64,000 bases of DNA from Anaerolineales bacterium (GTDB lineage Bacteria > Chloroflexota > Anaerolineae > Anaerolineales > UBA4823): the NCBI GenBank assembly GCA_020060465.1, contig JAGVAD010000024.1, forward strand, positions 62,001 through 126,000, given 5' to 3'. Below, piece by piece: positions 5,826 through 11,635 of the stretch. Below the pieces are notes generated by a model, which worked only from the letters and a program-made list of their open reading frames with translations, was not told the DNA's origin and made no database searches. Position 1 is the stretch's first letter, and each line of letters opens with the position of its first letter. Made by a program: the position numbers and the translations under genes.

Positions 5826-7376
5826 TTAGATAGACCGGCTCAGCGTGACAATGGTGATGTCATCCTCTTGTTCCCAGTCAGGGCCGGTAAATTCTGTGAG
5901 CCGCCCGATCAGGTACTGAATGAGTTCCTCGCCCTCCATGCGCGAATCGATGGTGAGCGATGAGAGGGTGTCTTGCAAGCGAGGAAAACCAAACATTTCT
6001 CGCCGAGAATCGTGCGCTTCGACCAGACCATCGCTGTACATCAGCAGACTATCGCCGGGCGCCAGTTGATCTTCTTTCTCCTCGTATTCGAGATCGGGAA
6101 AAAGCCCTAACGGAATGCCAGAAGCTTTCAATTCTCGCGCACCGTGCTGGGTGCGCAGATAAGGAAGATTATGGCCGGCGTTCGCATAGCGGATATGCCC
6201 CGTTTGCGGATCCAGGATCACCAGCAAACAGGTGACAAACATATCCATAGGCATTTCCTGGCTGAGTACATCGTTGACGCGCGCCAGCAATTTCCCCGGC
6301 GAATCCCGCCCGCTGCGGCCTATGCTGGCGGCTGCGCCGCGCAATACACTGCGGGCATTCGCCATGAGCAGCGCCGCCGGCACACCCTTATCGGTCACAT
6401 CTGCCACTACCAGACCCAACTTGCCATTTGGAAGGTGAATAAAGTCATAGAGGTCGCCGCTGACCACCCGCGCCGGCCGCCAAAACGCCGCCATGCGCCA
6501 CCCTGGGATCGCCGGTATCTGCTTGGTCAACAACCCCGATTGCACCTGACGCGCCATTTGCAAATCGCGCTCCAGCCAGGCTCTCTCGATTTCAAGTTGA
6601 TGTAGATGGGCGATCTCGATAGCCGGCGCGGTTTGCTGCGCAATAGCGCTGATCAGTTTGAGGTCGCCGCCGGTAAAAGGTCGGGTTGGCTCGCGCATCA
6701 AAACAAAGATGCCGATTACCCGCGTGTCAGACTTGAGCGGGGCGCAAAGCAGAGACACCGTCTCGTGATCCAGATCGCGAAAGTAGTGATTGGCAGACGC
6801 ATCATTAGAAATCTCTGCGCTGCCGCTTTGGATCACCCTCCCAATGAATTGATCTGGGGCAAGCGCTTCCGGCAGCAGATCGGCAGAAAGGCCGCAGCCG
6901 GCGATGATTTCTATTTGCTGTGTATCCTTGTGAATCAGGGCTGCAATGCCATGAGCGCCCTGGGCGCCAGAACAGATCTCGCTTAAGGCGGTCTCGGCAA
7001 TCAATTGGGGTTTTGGCGAGGCAATCAACCGCTCGGATAAGCGATAAAGCAAGTGTAGCTCTCGATATTTATCCAGAGCCTCCGCGGCGAGCGCCCTTTT
7101 TTGCATCTCTTGATCCAACAAGTAGGCGATAAGACTGGCCGTCAGCTCGCCCCACCGCGAACCCGGCAAGCTGAGCACCCAGCCGGCAACGAGATTGTCC
7201 TGAAGGATCGGGGAACGGACACCATTCGCGAGGGGATGATCCAGAGAAACGCCCAGCAGGGGTTTACCATCGGCGTCAAGGATGCTCAACGGTTCTCCTA
7301 AAGGTTGCAAAAACCTTTCCAGGAGACGCCCGCCTTCTTTATGCAGCCATCTATTCAGGGTAGTAATCGGGGTCAT
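5826..7376 (-). CDS. GAF-domain PP2C-type (RsbU/SpoIIE-like) serine phosphatase
   Basis: A 516-residue cytoplasmic regulator. The middle part (about residues 110-260) is a GAF domain introduced by YRELHLLYRLSERLIASPKP. The C-terminal part is a PPM/SpoIIE phosphatase with metal-binding SGDLYDF, VVADVTDKGVPAALLMA, NAGHNLPYL and YSDGLVEA. Such enzymes dephosphorylate anti-sigma-factor antagonists, and the family is often controlled by an upstream receiver. Its start overlaps the receiver gene by 26 bases, so it is the last gene of the kinase operon and probably its output. No anti-sigma or antagonist gene is adjacent, so the target is unknown. Confidence 0.88.
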   Translation of the reverse strand: MTPITTLNRWLHKEGGRLLERFLQPLGEPLSILDADGKPLLGVSLDHPLANGVRSPILQDNLVAGWVLSLPGSRWGELTASLIAYLLDQEMQKRALAAEALDKYRELHLLYRLSERLIASPKPQLIAETALSEICSGAQGAHGIAALIHKDTQQIEIIAGCGLSADLLPEALAPDQFIGRVIQSGSAEISNDASANHYFRDLDHETVSLLCAPLKSDTRVIGIFVLMREPTRPFTGGDLKLISAIAQQTAPAIEIAHLHQLEIERAWLERDLQMARQVQSGLLTKQIPAIPGWRMAAFWRPARVVSGDLYDFIHLPNGKLGLVVADVTDKGVPAALLMANARSVLRGAAASIGRSGRDSPGKLLARVNDVLSQEMPMDMFVTCLLVILDPQTGHIRYANAGHNLPYLRTQHGARELKASGIPLGLFPDLEYEEKEDQLAPGDSLLMYSDGLVEAHDSRREMFGFPRLQDTLSSLTIDSRMEGEELIQYLIGRLTEFTGPDWEQEDDITIVTLSRSI

Positions 7377-7764
7377 TGGTGAAAAGAACCTTTGTCGCTA
7401 GTTCCAGAAGCTCATCTGGGTCGAAAGGTTTGCTCATATAGAAATTTGCCCCAGCTTCTTGACCCATTTGGCGGTCATATTCCTGACCTTTCGCAGTGAG
7501 GATTACAATCATTGTATCTTCGTATTGATATTCCTGTTTGATCACCCGGCAAACTTCAAAACCGTTGATTTTGGGGATCATCACATCCAAAAAGATCAAC
7601 CGAGGTCGCTGCTCGCGGGCCAGCCGCAGGGCATCCTCGCCGTTATCGGCTTTCAAGATGTCAACGCCGCGTTCCTCCAACTCCTCCAGCGTTTGTTCGA
7701 GGAGCAGCCGAATATACGCCTCGTCATCAACGATCAAAACTTTCTTTTGCGAACCATTGCCCAT
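7351..7764 (-). CDS. Single-domain response regulator (receiver only)
   Basis: A 137-residue CheY-like receiver without an output domain. Acidic residues are in VLIVDDEAY, the phosphorylated aspartate is Asp60 in LIFLDVMIP, and the conserved lysine is in YMSKPFDPDEL. It begins 3 bases after the kinase stop and overlaps the phosphatase start. The simplest reading is a phosphorelay in which the upstream kinase phosphorylates this receiver, which then controls the phosphatase. That order of action is inference from the operon. Confidence 0.9.
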   Translation of the reverse strand: MGNGSQKKVLIVDDEAYIRLLLEQTLEELEERGVDILKADNGEDALRLAREQRPRLIFLDVMIPKINGFEVCRVIKQEYQYEDTMIVILTAKGQEYDRQMGQEAGANFYMSKPFDPDELLELATKVLFTNDPDYYPE

Positions 7765-7767
7765 TTT

Positions 7768-10239
7768 CTAACGCTCCTGCAGGCTGCCTTCTGGATATCC
7801 ATCAACTTTTGGCCGCTCTTCATGACCACCGGGATCAACAACCGGTATAGAGAAGGAGAAAGTACTGCCTTTGCCCACCTCGCTTTCAACCCAAATCCGC
7901 CCGCCGTGCTGTTCAACGATCTCTTTACTGATCGCCAAACCCAAGCCGGTGCCCTTCGGTTTGGCAGTCAACATATCTCCCACCTGCCTGAACTTTTCAA
8001 AAACCAGCGCCTGATCCGAGGGCGAGATTCCAATTCCCTGATCAATCACCTGAACGATCACTTCGCGGTTCTCTTGCTGGGCGCGAACGATGACTGAACC
8101 CTGGGGCGTAAACTTCACCGCATTGGATACCAGATTGATCACCACCTGAACGATGCGATCTGCATCGCCAATCACTTTGGGTAAATTCTCTGGGATATCC
8201 ACAATGAAAGAAAGGTTCTTGCCATCAAACAAAGCGGCGCAGGCGGTCGTCGCCTGACGGATTACATTGCCAATCGGGAGCGGTTGAAATTGCCACTCCA
8301 TTTTCCCGGCTTCGATCTTTTCCAAATCCAGCAGGTTGTTGATCAGCGTCATCAGGCGCTGCCCCTCGTCTAAAATGATTTGCAGATTCTCCTGGATCAG
8401 GGCCGTGGCGCGCTGCAATTTCTCGTCTTGATCTGGCAACAAGGGAAATATTCGTTCTTCCAGCCGCTTTTGAACGATGCGGGTGAACCCAAAGATGGAA
8501 ACCAGAGGCGTACGTAATTCATGGCTGATATTTGCCAGGAAATCGCTCTTGGCGGCGTTGGCGGCTTCGGCAATGGCACGCGCTTCTTCAGCAGCCTGGC
8601 GAGCCGCCTCCATTTGCTGCGCGTACACAACCGTCTGTTTATACAGACGCGCGTTATCCATCGCCACACCGATCTGCTGTCCAATGGAGGCTGGCACAGC
8701 CAATTGCTCAGGCGAAGGCCATATCAGGGAACGACTGGTCACGTTGATAGCGCCCAGTACACTATCTTGATTGAGCAGCGGGATGCTGACTACAGTTTTA
8801 AGCTGATCTCGCTCCATCACCTCCCGCAACGCGCCAGGCGGATAATCGGCGACCAGGCGGGCAACCGGGCGGTGCGTTCTCACCACTTCGTCAATGATGC
8901 TGGCTTCAACCGGCAGGCGTTGAATTAACAACAGCATTTCAGGGCTGATACCTTGCTGGTCCACCAGGATGAGCTGGTGCGCATCCAAATCGAAGCGGAA
9001 GACTGCGCCGGCATCCATGTGCAATACCTCGATGGTTTTGGTCAAAGCGTCTGAAAGGATCTGATCCAGGTCCAACGAACGACTGACCACTGCCGCCACC
9101 GAATTCAGAGCCGTAAGTTCTTCTGTGCGCTGCGCCACCCGCATTTCCAGCGTCTCATAGGATTCTTTCAACTGGCCCGCCATGATGTTGAACTGGTTTG
9201 CCAGGTTCTCCATTTCATCGCCGGTTTTCAAGGTGATGGGGTGGGTGAAGTCGCCTCCGGCAATGCGCTGAGCAGCGGCGGTAAAATCCATCAATGGACG
9301 GGTCACGCGCCGGACGCCAAAAGCCATGGTCAGGGTAGGAATAAGCACGCCTAAAACTAACAAAATCCACAAAAACCGCAGATACCCCTGGCTGGTGAGC
9401 GCCAGATCGCTCCAGTTTTCTTCGACGATCAATGTCCAGGAAGTACGCGGTATCGGGGCGTAACCCGCTACAATATCCCGCCCATCCAGCGACCGCGTCC
9501 GCGCCACCCCCACTCGGCCGGTTAGAGCCTGGTTCGCCACCGGATGGCTGGTGAACACTTCGCCGATTTGCTCTGAGAAATTGGTAAAGACGACACGCCG
9601 GTTGCTATCCACCAGATAAGCATTGCCGCTGCGGCCAATGCGCAATTTAATCAGCGCACCATAAAATGGGCTTACCGAATTTACGTCTAAATGAAACATC
9701 CCCGCCGCAACCCCTCGGAACTCTCCTCGGTCGCCCAGGATGGGGACAGCCAGAGCAATTACCTCTTCTCCATTGGGTCCATTCGGCTCGATATTTGAAA
9801 TATATAAGGCAGGCGTGCGCACCATGGTGCGGAAAAACGAGCGATTGGACCAATCCTGATTCAGCAGCCGGGGGTTTTCTGGCAGGGCAGCGACGACATA
9901 TCCCAGATTGTTCATCAAGTACACGCCGGCGTCGAAAAAGACAAGCTGGTTTTTCGAGCCAATCAACGCCAGGCGTTGATTGCGCGGTGCGCCGGCATAA
10001 ATATCCGGCAGGCGCGTCAGCGTGGTGAGGCGGTCAATATACTCTTCAAAGCTGGCGGAGATCTCACTGGCGGAAAGGCGCGTCAACTCTTCATCGCGCT
10101 TGAGCACCAAATCTTCGGTGACCTTCTGATACGCCACATAGACCGTCAGCGCCACCAGGAAAAGAATGATGACGGTTGGGATGAACGACCAGGCGACAAT
10201 TTTATTGCTCAGCCTGGATCCGAAGCGAGGAAAAACCAA
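7768..10239 (-). CDS. Membrane sensor histidine kinase (CACHE-HAMP-GAF-HisKA-HATPase)
   Basis: An 823-residue kinase. Order: first membrane helix (NKIVAWSFIPTVIILFLVALTVYV), extracytoplasmic double-CACHE-like sensor (about 40-320), second helix (FLWILLVLGVLIPTLTMAF), HAMP, GAF domain, coiled coil, HisKA with the phosphorylated His573 in FLANISHELRTP, and a HATPase domain with NLVSNAVKFT, DQGIGIS and GTGLGLAISKEIVEQHGG. The start was moved from the ORF-track 10491 to TTG 10239. That TTG has AGGAG seven bases upstream, and the longer version would run 230 bases into the binding-protein gene with a low-complexity translation. It follows the binding-protein gene after 19 bases, suggesting that the binding protein presents a ligand to this sensor. 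Confidence 0.88.
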   Translation of the reverse strand: MVFPRFGSRLSNKIVAWSFIPTVIILFLVALTVYVAYQKVTEDLVLKRDEELTRLSASEISASFEEYIDRLTTLTRLPDIYAGAPRNQRLALIGSKNQLVFFDAGVYLMNNLGYVVAALPENPRLLNQDWSNRSFFRTMVRTPALYISNIEPNGPNGEEVIALAVPILGDRGEFRGVAAGMFHLDVNSVSPFYGALIKLRIGRSGNAYLVDSNRRVVFTNFSEQIGEVFTSHPVANQALTGRVGVARTRSLDGRDIVAGYAPIPRTSWTLIVEENWSDLALTSQGYLRFLWILLVLGVLIPTLTMAFGVRRVTRPLMDFTAAAQRIAGGDFTHPITLKTGDEMENLANQFNIMAGQLKESYETLEMRVAQRTEELTALNSVAAVVSRSLDLDQILSDALTKTIEVLHMDAGAVFRFDLDAHQLILVDQQGISPEMLLLIQRLPVEASIIDEVVRTHRPVARLVADYPPGALREVMERDQLKTVVSIPLLNQDSVLGAINVTSRSLIWPSPEQLAVPASIGQQIGVAMDNARLYKQTVVYAQQMEAARQAAEEARAIAEAANAAKSDFLANISHELRTPLVSIFGFTRIVQKRLEERIFPLLPDQDEKLQRATALIQENLQIILDEGQRLMTLINNLLDLEKIEAGKMEWQFQPLPIGNVIRQATTACAALFDGKNLSFIVDIPENLPKVIGDADRIVQVVINLVSNAVKFTPQGSVIVRAQQENREVIVQVIDQGIGISPSDQALVFEKFRQVGDMLTAKPKGTGLGLAISKEIVEQHGGRIWVESEVGKGSTFSFSIPVVDPGGHEERPKVDGYPEGSLQER

Positions 10240-10258
10240 AACCAGACTCCTGTAGATA

Positions 10259-11635
10259 TCAGCTCTGCTCGTTGCACGCGCACAGTGAAGGAGATAGACT
10301 GACGCCCTGTTGAATTTTCTCGATTTGCTGGCAGACTTTTTCCATTTCGCTGACCGGCATTTTGCCAAGCGTGAAAATCTGATCCCAGGCGTCTTTTGCC
10401 AGCTTGCTGACCCCAACCATGTTCGGAAAGGTCTCTGCGGTGACGGAATAGCCCTTGATTTGTCCGTCCGCAAATGCGGCAATATCCACATCTTTGCTGC
10501 GTTCCGGGTATTCCTGGCGAATGTACTCCACCCATTCTGGCACTAACGAGGCGCGCGCTGGCTGTAAAAAATGGGCGCGCGCCATGGCGCGCCCATAATC
10601 CTTACTTATCAGGAATTTCAACAATTCCCAGGCCGCCTCTGGATGCTTCGTTCCGGCGTAAATGCCAAAGCCATCCGTGGTCGCCAGTGTGGCATGGCGT
10701 TTCGGGCCGGTCGGAAACGGCGCGACACCGATGCGAAATCTTGCGTTGTCCAGAATATCCTTTAACGCCCAGGAGCCATCTTCCACCATTGCAACTTTTT
10801 GCTGGATGAAAGCCTGGCGGGTCTCAATATTTTGCACATCCAGAAACGTCGCCATCACCTTGTCTTCCCACATCCTTCGCCGCAGCCACTCCATGGCTTC
10901 TTGCGCCGGTGGGGCGGACATCTCACAGCGGGCGGGGTCATCGGGGTTGACATAGTGGCCGCCAAAGCTATTGACGTGGATCTGGATGCGATCCCATGTG
11001 ACGTCAAACATGCTACCCCATTGAGTAATTCCATCGCTGTTGTGGCGGGTCAGGCGGGTCATCGCTGACCAATAATCATCGTATGTCCAATCACCTGCGG
11101 GATACTCGACCGCCGCGGCGTCGAACAAATCTTTGTTGTAGTATAAAGCCAGCGCGCCGTGATACTTGGGCAAGCCGAATTGTTTCCCATCGCGGGTGAA
11201 AAGCGCTTGATATTGAGCGGGTGACCAATCATCAATGGTCTCTTTGTCAAGGTCCGCTTCTACAAGGGGTCTCAAATCCATCAGATAGCCAGCGTTTGCC
11301 CAGGCGGGGAAAAACTCGCAGCAACCGGAAAGTACATCCGGCGCAGTTCCTGCCGCCATATCGTCTAGCATTTTCTCTTCCAGATTATCCGGATCCGGCG
11401 TATAAAAGACGCGAATATTGGGATGATCTTTGTTAAAGATTTCCAACATCTGCTGCGCCAGCGACGGGAACCATTCGGTTCTCCAGTCTTGATAGACTAA
11501 CTGCACTGCGCCTTTATCGCCGCTGGCAGTTGACGACGGCGAAAGACCACATGCCGACAACGCCGCGCTGGCGGCAGCGACGCCCGCCACACGGAGAAAG
11601 TCACGCCGCCTCAATAACCTGCTGCCCTTGTTCAT
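10259..11635 (-). CDS. Extracellular solute-binding protein (family 1, sugar type) with Tat/lipoprotein signal
   Basis: A 458-residue periplasmic or surface binding protein. The N-terminus MNKGSRLLRRRDFLRVAGVAA has a twin-arginine motif, and AALSAC gives a lipobox-like cysteine. The mature part looks like carbohydrate family 1 binding proteins: VYQDWRTEWFP, DMAAGTAPDVLSGC, GLPKYHGALALYYNKDLFDAA, TLATTDGFGIYAGTKHPEAAWELLKFL. The start was set at ATG 11635; the ORF-track start adds 44 residues without signal character. No ABC permease or ATPase follows. Instead the operon continues with a sensor kinase, receiver and phosphatase, so a role as a ligand sensor is likely. Ligand unknown. Confidence 0.87.
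   Translation of the reverse strand: MNKGSRLLRRRDFLRVAGVAAASAALSACGLSPSSTASGDKGAVQLVYQDWRTEWFPSLAQQMLEIFNKDHPNIRVFYTPDPDNLEEKMLDDMAAGTAPDVLSGCCEFFPAWANAGYLMDLRPLVEADLDKETIDDWSPAQYQALFTRDGKQFGLPKYHGALALYYNKDLFDAAAVEYPAGDWTYDDYWSAMTRLTRHNSDGITQWGSMFDVTWDRIQIHVNSFGGHYVNPDDPARCEMSAPPAQEAMEWLRRRMWEDKVMATFLDVQNIETRQAFIQQKVAMVEDGSWALKDILDNARFRIGVAPFPTGPKRHATLATTDGFGIYAGTKHPEAAWELLKFLISKDYGRAMARAHFLQPARASLVPEWVEYIRQEYPERSKDVDIAAFADGQIKGYSVTAETFPNMVGVSKLAKDAWDQIFTLGKMPVSEMEKVCQQIEKIQQGVSLSPSLCACNEQS

Follow-up and report, generated by a model that had tools for sequence, protein, structure and literature searches.

The minus strand of the 64,000-nt window (the whole stretch of DNA analysed here) carries a four-gene operon that probably encodes a two-component phosphatase pathway gated by a solute-binding protein (SBP). 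Comparison across genomes revealed that the SBP gene is specifically linked to the gene for a dCache sensor, and that the outputs behind this pair are exchanged. The original prediction of an SBP, a sensor kinase, a receiver and a PP2C phosphatase was reproduced at the same coordinates, with all four genes on the minus strand, and the predicted intergenic spacings of 19, 3 and -26 nt matched exactly. The features of the operon are as follows.

10259..11635, minus strand: SBP gene, operon gene 1; family-1 solute-binding protein of 458 aa (SBP_bac_1, Pfam 2.3e-37)
11531..11635, minus strand: Tat/lipoprotein signal of the SBP, RRRDFLRVAG...LSAC, with lipobox Cys29 (from the sequence)
10247..10251, minus strand: AGGAG Shine-Dalgarno-like motif, 7 nt 5' of the TTG start of the kinase gene (from the sequence)
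7768..10239, minus strand: sensor kinase gene; membrane sensor of 823 aa with a TTG start and the Pfam domains dCache-HAMP-GAF-HisKA-HATPase_c
9421..10089, minus strand: dCache_1 extracytoplasmic domain of the kinase (Pfam 1.1e-22), the proposed docking partner of the SBP
9166..9315, minus strand: HAMP domain of the kinase (Pfam 5.9e-13)
8662..9072, minus strand: GAF domain of the kinase (Pfam 1.4e-9)
7840..8553, minus strand: HisKA and HATPase_c kinase core (Pfam 1.5e-16 and 1.4e-30), H-box His573
7351..7764, minus strand: stand-alone receiver of 137 aa (Response_reg, Pfam 5.5e-27), Asp60 phospho-acceptor and Lys112
5826..7376, minus strand: GAF-SpoIIE/PP2C phosphatase of 516 aa (SpoIIE, Pfam 3.1e-50), with a 26-nt overlap with the receiver gene

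The HAMP and GAF domains of the kinase and the GAF domain of the phosphatase were additional to the domains originally listed (Pfam). The residues of a two-component system were present in Pfam-assigned domains, namely His573 in HisKA, and Asp60 and Lys112 in the receiver, a protein without an output domain. The PP2C product contained all four metal-binding aspartates of the SpoIIE/RsbU type (308, 326, 449 and 506). In a promoter and terminator scan, the real sequence scored no better than shuffled sequences. In the proposed pathway, the lipoprotein SBP would be tethered outside the membrane and bind a ligand, most likely an oligosaccharide. We infer that the loaded SBP would then dock on the dimeric sensor, at its dCache domain, and shift the sensor's state without any import. 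After autophosphorylation at His573, the kinase would hand the phosphate on to Asp60 of the receiver. The receiver stands alone, lacks an output domain and is encoded by a gene that overlaps that of the phosphatase; it would in turn switch the GAF-PP2C on or off. Dephosphorylation of a STAS-type antagonist by the PP2C, most simply the product of C56:21531-21815, would change the bound partner of the adjacent RsbW-type kinase.

The predicted absence of ABC permease genes was borne out by an HMM search of the 64-kb window, and none of the 51 BPD_transp_1 matches in the genome is located on the 151-kb contig of the operon (C56). The SBP has no cognate permease pair at the same locus, as an ABC importer would, and no permease was seen beside SBP orthologs of at least 55% identity. 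A transporter pair clearly belonging to the binding protein, which would have spoken against the prediction, was found neither upstream nor elsewhere. The SBP could nevertheless belong to transport, sharing a permease pair whose genes lie elsewhere in the genome, with its adjacency to the sensor gene providing only co-regulation. The genome does contain many permease pairs and five other sugar SBPs, and one maltose-type pair (C63:766-2486) lies beside ORFs that look glycosidase-like and LacI-like by eye; as this pair starts at the contig end, its own SBP is out of view. However, the permease-flanked sequence relatives of the SBP are at most 37% identical to it, and no permease was seen beside the orthologs or on the 151-kb contig; such sharing is unlikely.

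SBP homologs collected from relatives, from class and phylum samples and from the genome collection fell into two sets of 55-92% and at most 39% identity. This wide gap (at least 55% versus at most 39%) sets the sensing SBPs apart from those of transport by sequence alone. Among 396 Anaerolineae genomes sampled, 22 (about 6%) carry the SBP family, which also occurs in Chloroflexota genomes outside Anaerolineae and in two actinobacterial records. Linkage was counted in 36 independent loci with an SBP of at least 55% identity and readable DNA downstream. The next gene downstream on the same strand encoded a dCache sensor in 34 of these 36 loci, which span many families, and this is the arrangement expected of SBP-dependent sensor systems, an SBP gene kept beside a receptor gene. 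The spacing was mostly -17 to +85 nt, using the start position expected from the alignment, and reached 497 nt in L102; in L182 and L109 the contig ends early, with just the start of the sensor visible. Of the two exceptions, L114 (genome G223) has an SBP split by a frameshift, and the best sensor match in that genome is only 27% identical, with no close one. In L180 (genome G530) the SBP is intact and the next gene encodes a small membrane protein, while a close sensor (49%) is encoded on another contig. That sensor could be an SBP-independent paralog; G530 was not taken as unambiguous evidence for an unlinked partner, because many close dCache relatives lack an SBP.

None of the 17 looser relatives (at most 37% identity) directly precedes a gene for a dCache sensor, and all nine of those with Pfam-scanned neighbours, including the four other SBPs of the window genome, adjoin BPD_transp_1 permeases. 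Between loci with the SBP, genes matched in 253 of 276 pairs at position +1, versus 2 of 231 pairs at position -1 and 1 of 171 pairs at position -2. As the upstream genes are unrelated between loci, chance neighbourhood or simple synteny was ruled out, and the match confined to the downstream side indicates that the SBP-sensor pairing is specific. The distances among SBPs and among dCache domains were correlated (Mantel r 0.74, reached in 0 of 5000 permutations), as expected for long co-inheritance. Mean identity was 63% for the SBP versus 45% for dCache; the faster divergence of dCache suggests that the conserved specificity is carried by the SBP. That the SBP partners the sensor instead of a transporter is supported by the pair in 34 of 36 loci, the unconserved neighbours and the absence of a permease that is clearly its own. 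The expectation that the same four-gene set would recur in other Chloroflexota held in part: the SBP-sensor pair is constant, but the complete set was found at four loci, all with the SBP and all confined to the clade of the window.

The dCache family is wider than the SBP-coupled set, as 73 of 396 genomes of the class gave a match at E <= 1e-30. The genes upstream of 21 further strong dCache loci were therefore inspected. Four of these loci (L197, L199, L203 and L206) follow a peptide-type SBP_bac_5 gene, with no permease nearby in the two larger contigs; the sensor gene of L202 is preceded by a fragment of an SBP_bac_1 gene at a contig end, and one further locus is also at a contig end. About 15 of the 21 have other or opposite-strand genes upstream, with no recognised SBP immediately upstream. 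In the sensor tree, the SBP_bac_5-coupled sensors grouped together with weak support (73), and the uncoupled sensors were interleaved with the SBP_bac_1-coupled ones. The existence of SBP_bac_5-coupled, SBP_bac_1-coupled and uncoupled sensors supports the view that the binding protein is an exchangeable input. The interleaving indicates that the sensor family is not SBP-dependent by nature, and this is what most limits the SBP-sensor claim.

These uncoupled close relatives also fit an alternative in which dCache senses its own small ligand and the SBP only fine-tunes the response, for example by increasing affinity when ligand is scarce, a role suggested for CuaD with CuaSR, or by keeping the sensor off while the SBP is empty. 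The AF2 model of the kinase dCache domain (pLDDT 83), with Foldseek matches to 3lif, PctA, CtaA and DctB, resembles the direct ligand binders PctA, CtaA and DctB, and both CuaDSR and CuaSR of Ruminiclostridium cellulolyticum respond to cellobiose (PMC10384115). On the other hand, the SBP was always present in two of the output classes described below (A and B) in this sample, and the dCache domain is the less conserved member of the pair. We regard sensing by dCache itself as a serious possibility, if a less probable one than gating by the loaded SBP.

The AF2 model of the SBP (pLDDT 85) agreed with the profile in placing the protein in SBP_bac_1, and the best PDB matches in Foldseek were 5f7v (TMt 0.86), the cycloalternan-binding Lmo0181, and 6rjy (TMt 0.79), the arabino-oligosaccharide-binding AbnE, at 21-23% identity. 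The modelled fold suggests that the ligand is most likely of the oligosaccharide type, without indicating which oligosaccharide. The signal region is kept in most orthologs, and in the window SBP it passed the NCBIfam TAT_signal_seq cut-off (18.0 versus 16.7) and failed the Pfam cut-off. The vicinal pair Cys105-Cys106 is invariant across a 27-row alignment and, from alignment with MalE-like proteins, is probably near the ligand cleft. The pair was ruled out as a sensor-specific mark, as it is also present in the transport SBPs of L118-L126. The genes flanking these CC-type transport SBPs (a peptide release factor with PrmC, radical SAM, GH4 and sulfatase) gave no consistent clue to a ligand.

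Behind the SBP-dCache front end, three output classes were distinguished. Class A (the window, L019, L020 and L022) has the HisKA kinase, receiver and GAF-PP2C. Class C (17 loci) has a HisKA_3 kinase, adjoined by a LuxR-type regulator in most loci with visible following DNA; in L104 of this class a receiver-LuxR-SpoIIE fusion lies downstream instead, and in L108 and L034 such a fusion lies upstream. The fusion of receiver and PP2C within these SBP-sensor clusters supports signalling from receiver to PP2C. In class B (seven loci plus L202), dCache is fused directly to a SpoIIE-like domain, and the next gene in five loci encodes a multi-TM protein of about 580 aa with a degenerate GAF domain. 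The aspartate equivalent to 449 was lost in 8 of 8 class B domains and that equivalent to 326 in 7 of 8, and with these metal ligands gone the domains are probable pseudo-phosphatases. Overall, the downstream outputs are mostly kinases without a PP2C nearby. In the SBP tree, class A formed one clade (support 100) nested in class C, and class B formed one clade (support 98); the three classes fit two changes on the tree, with the front end kept throughout. As the pair is conserved and specific and its front end is kept across outputs, the reading in which the binding protein would signal to the sensor is well supported. We propose more tentatively, and with slightly less than even confidence, that the family is a plug-in sensory cassette of Chloroflexota that would report a nutrient to partner switching without importing it: one dCache family that takes exchangeable binding proteins outside, whether sugar-type, peptide-type or absent, and exchangeable outputs inside (HisKA with receiver and PP2C, HisKA_3 with a LuxR-type regulator, or a fused pseudo-phosphatase).

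The suggested search for an anti-sigma antagonist in the window genome, which is 83% complete, detected one STAS protein of 111 aa (C56:21531-21815) with a conserved Ser (SSAGL). Its gene adjoins that of the one strong RsbW-type kinase (HATPase_c_2, C56:20932-21327), and the pair is on the contig of the operon, about 46 kb away. The genome thus encodes both an antagonist with a phosphorylatable Ser and an RsbW-type kinase, and it is plausible that the PP2C controls partner switching via this STAS protein. No sigma factor was identified among the scanned neighbours of the two genes. The pair is followed by a 1367-aa GAF-SpoIIE protein, a different phosphatase from the PP2C of the operon, and six strong SpoIIE proteins were found in the genome. 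In Bacillus subtilis, several phosphatases (RsbU and RsbP) converge on one STAS protein; several phosphatases feeding one STAS switch would likewise be the simplest model here. The surplus of six strong SpoIIE proteins over a single detected STAS, and the SpoIIE neighbour that the STAS/RsbW pair already has, could instead mean that the PP2C acts outside partner switching, on another Ser/Thr phosphoprotein or in a pathway that ends in a protein-protein effect. The class B sister systems, in which a PP2C-like domain without metal ligands is used, also suggest that not every output depends on catalysis. However, class A retains the full set of metal ligands, and the SpoIIE/RsbU subfamily of PP2C classically targets STAS antagonists; we hold a role outside partner switching to be the less likely reading.

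Most known examples of SBP-dependent sensing are single cases from Proteobacteria and Firmicutes. In LuxP-LuxQ, ChvE-VirA, TorT-TorS, NspS-MbaA and XylFII-LytS, the ligand-loaded SBP acts on the sensor domain of a membrane receptor to transmit its signal, though the SBP and receptor subfamilies differ from those described here. The nearest described layout that we found is CuaD-CuaS-CuaR of R. cellulolyticum, in which CuaD binds the extracellular part of CuaS (PMC10384115). The likeness is one of layout, a sugar SBP gene dedicated to sensing beside genes for a sensor kinase and a regulator; that system drives a cellobiose transporter operon via CuaR, whereas the operon here has a stand-alone receiver and PP2C as output and no linked transporter genes. 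SBP-dependent receptors are an established kind according to the available part of PMC9602780, where the SBP-activated types listed are chemoreceptors, kinases, c-di-GMP enzymes and Ser/Thr kinases, with no PP2C-type outputs in that part.

On the output side, signalling from a sensor kinase through a receiver-PP2C protein to a partner switch is known from Mycobacterium smegmatis, with RsfS-RsfR (PMC10950880), and from Bacillus cereus, with RsbK-RsbY (PMC4574943, PMC9912610). Receiver and phosphatase form one protein in these two systems, whereas they are encoded by separate overlapping genes here, fused only in the cousins L104, L108 and L034, and an SBP is added at the input. SiaA of Pseudomonas aeruginosa, a membrane protein with HAMP and a PP2C domain that acts on SiaC, resembles class B in layout (PMC7647112). 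However, SiaA binds metals and is catalytically active as a phosphatase (PMC7647112), whereas class B has lost metal ligands and sits behind an SBP gene. No published description of such a system in Chloroflexota, or of an SBP with a PP2C, was found in the open-access literature, and the SBP/sensor/PP2C combination and the modular family appear to be undescribed in the open literature searched. The occurrence of one front end on three outputs provides natural experiments on signal transmission by the SBP-dCache complex, and it also points to Ser/Thr phosphatases as another type of output under SBP control.

The residue equivalent to the metal-binding Asp449 of the window PP2C was absent from the PP2C-like domain of all eight proteins in which dCache is fused directly to SpoIIE (loci L095, L099, L105, L107, L110, L113, L125 and L202), and that equivalent to Asp326 was absent from seven of them. 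As these metal-binding residues are lost, the PP2C-like domains of the eight fusions are probable pseudo-phosphatases. Downstream of the class B fusion, a conserved multi-TM protein of approximately 580 aa, which carries a degenerate GAF domain and what by eye resembles a PDZ loop, was found at five loci:

L107:3223-4962, multi-TM protein after the fusion
L095:4733-6475, multi-TM protein after the fusion
L099:7063-8838, multi-TM protein after the fusion
L110:7189-8799, multi-TM protein after the fusion
L125:346-2064, multi-TM protein after the fusion

On the operon-bearing contig of the window genome (G000), at C56:16812-21852 (equal to L157:813-5852), the genes for STAS, an RsbW-type kinase and a 1367-aa SpoIIE phosphatase with five GAF domains form a single run; no other STAS/RsbW pair was detected in this genome.

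Close relatives of the window dCache sensor were located directly downstream of a peptide-type SBP_bac_5 at four loci, with no permease nearby in the two larger contigs:

L197:2500-4032, SBP_bac_5/dCache sensor locus
L199:1234-2940, SBP_bac_5/dCache sensor locus
L203:669-2429, SBP_bac_5/dCache sensor locus
L206:871-2607, SBP_bac_5/dCache sensor locus

Residues 105-106 of the window SBP (10259-11635, minus strand) are an invariant vicinal Cys-Cys pair, which may form a vicinal disulfide close to the ligand-binding cleft; the pair is common to sensor-type SBPs and some transport SBPs (L118-L126).

Two SBP-sensor pairs were arranged in tandem at L034:434-10938, in the order receiver-LuxR-GAF-SpoIIE, an SBP of 27% identity paired with a dCache HisKA_3 kinase of its own, and the SBP of 64% identity followed by its sensor. 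At L113:9105-10493 and L109:4028-5506, the sensor-type SBP is directly preceded by another, divergent SBP_bac_1 gene. A 23S_rRNA_IVP-family gene separates the sensor kinase from the cognate response regulator at L106:8449-8862 and L098:3125-3559, and a 1308-aa CHAT-domain protein with a CpXC motif is encoded downstream of an SBP-sensor pair at L108:8522-12448.
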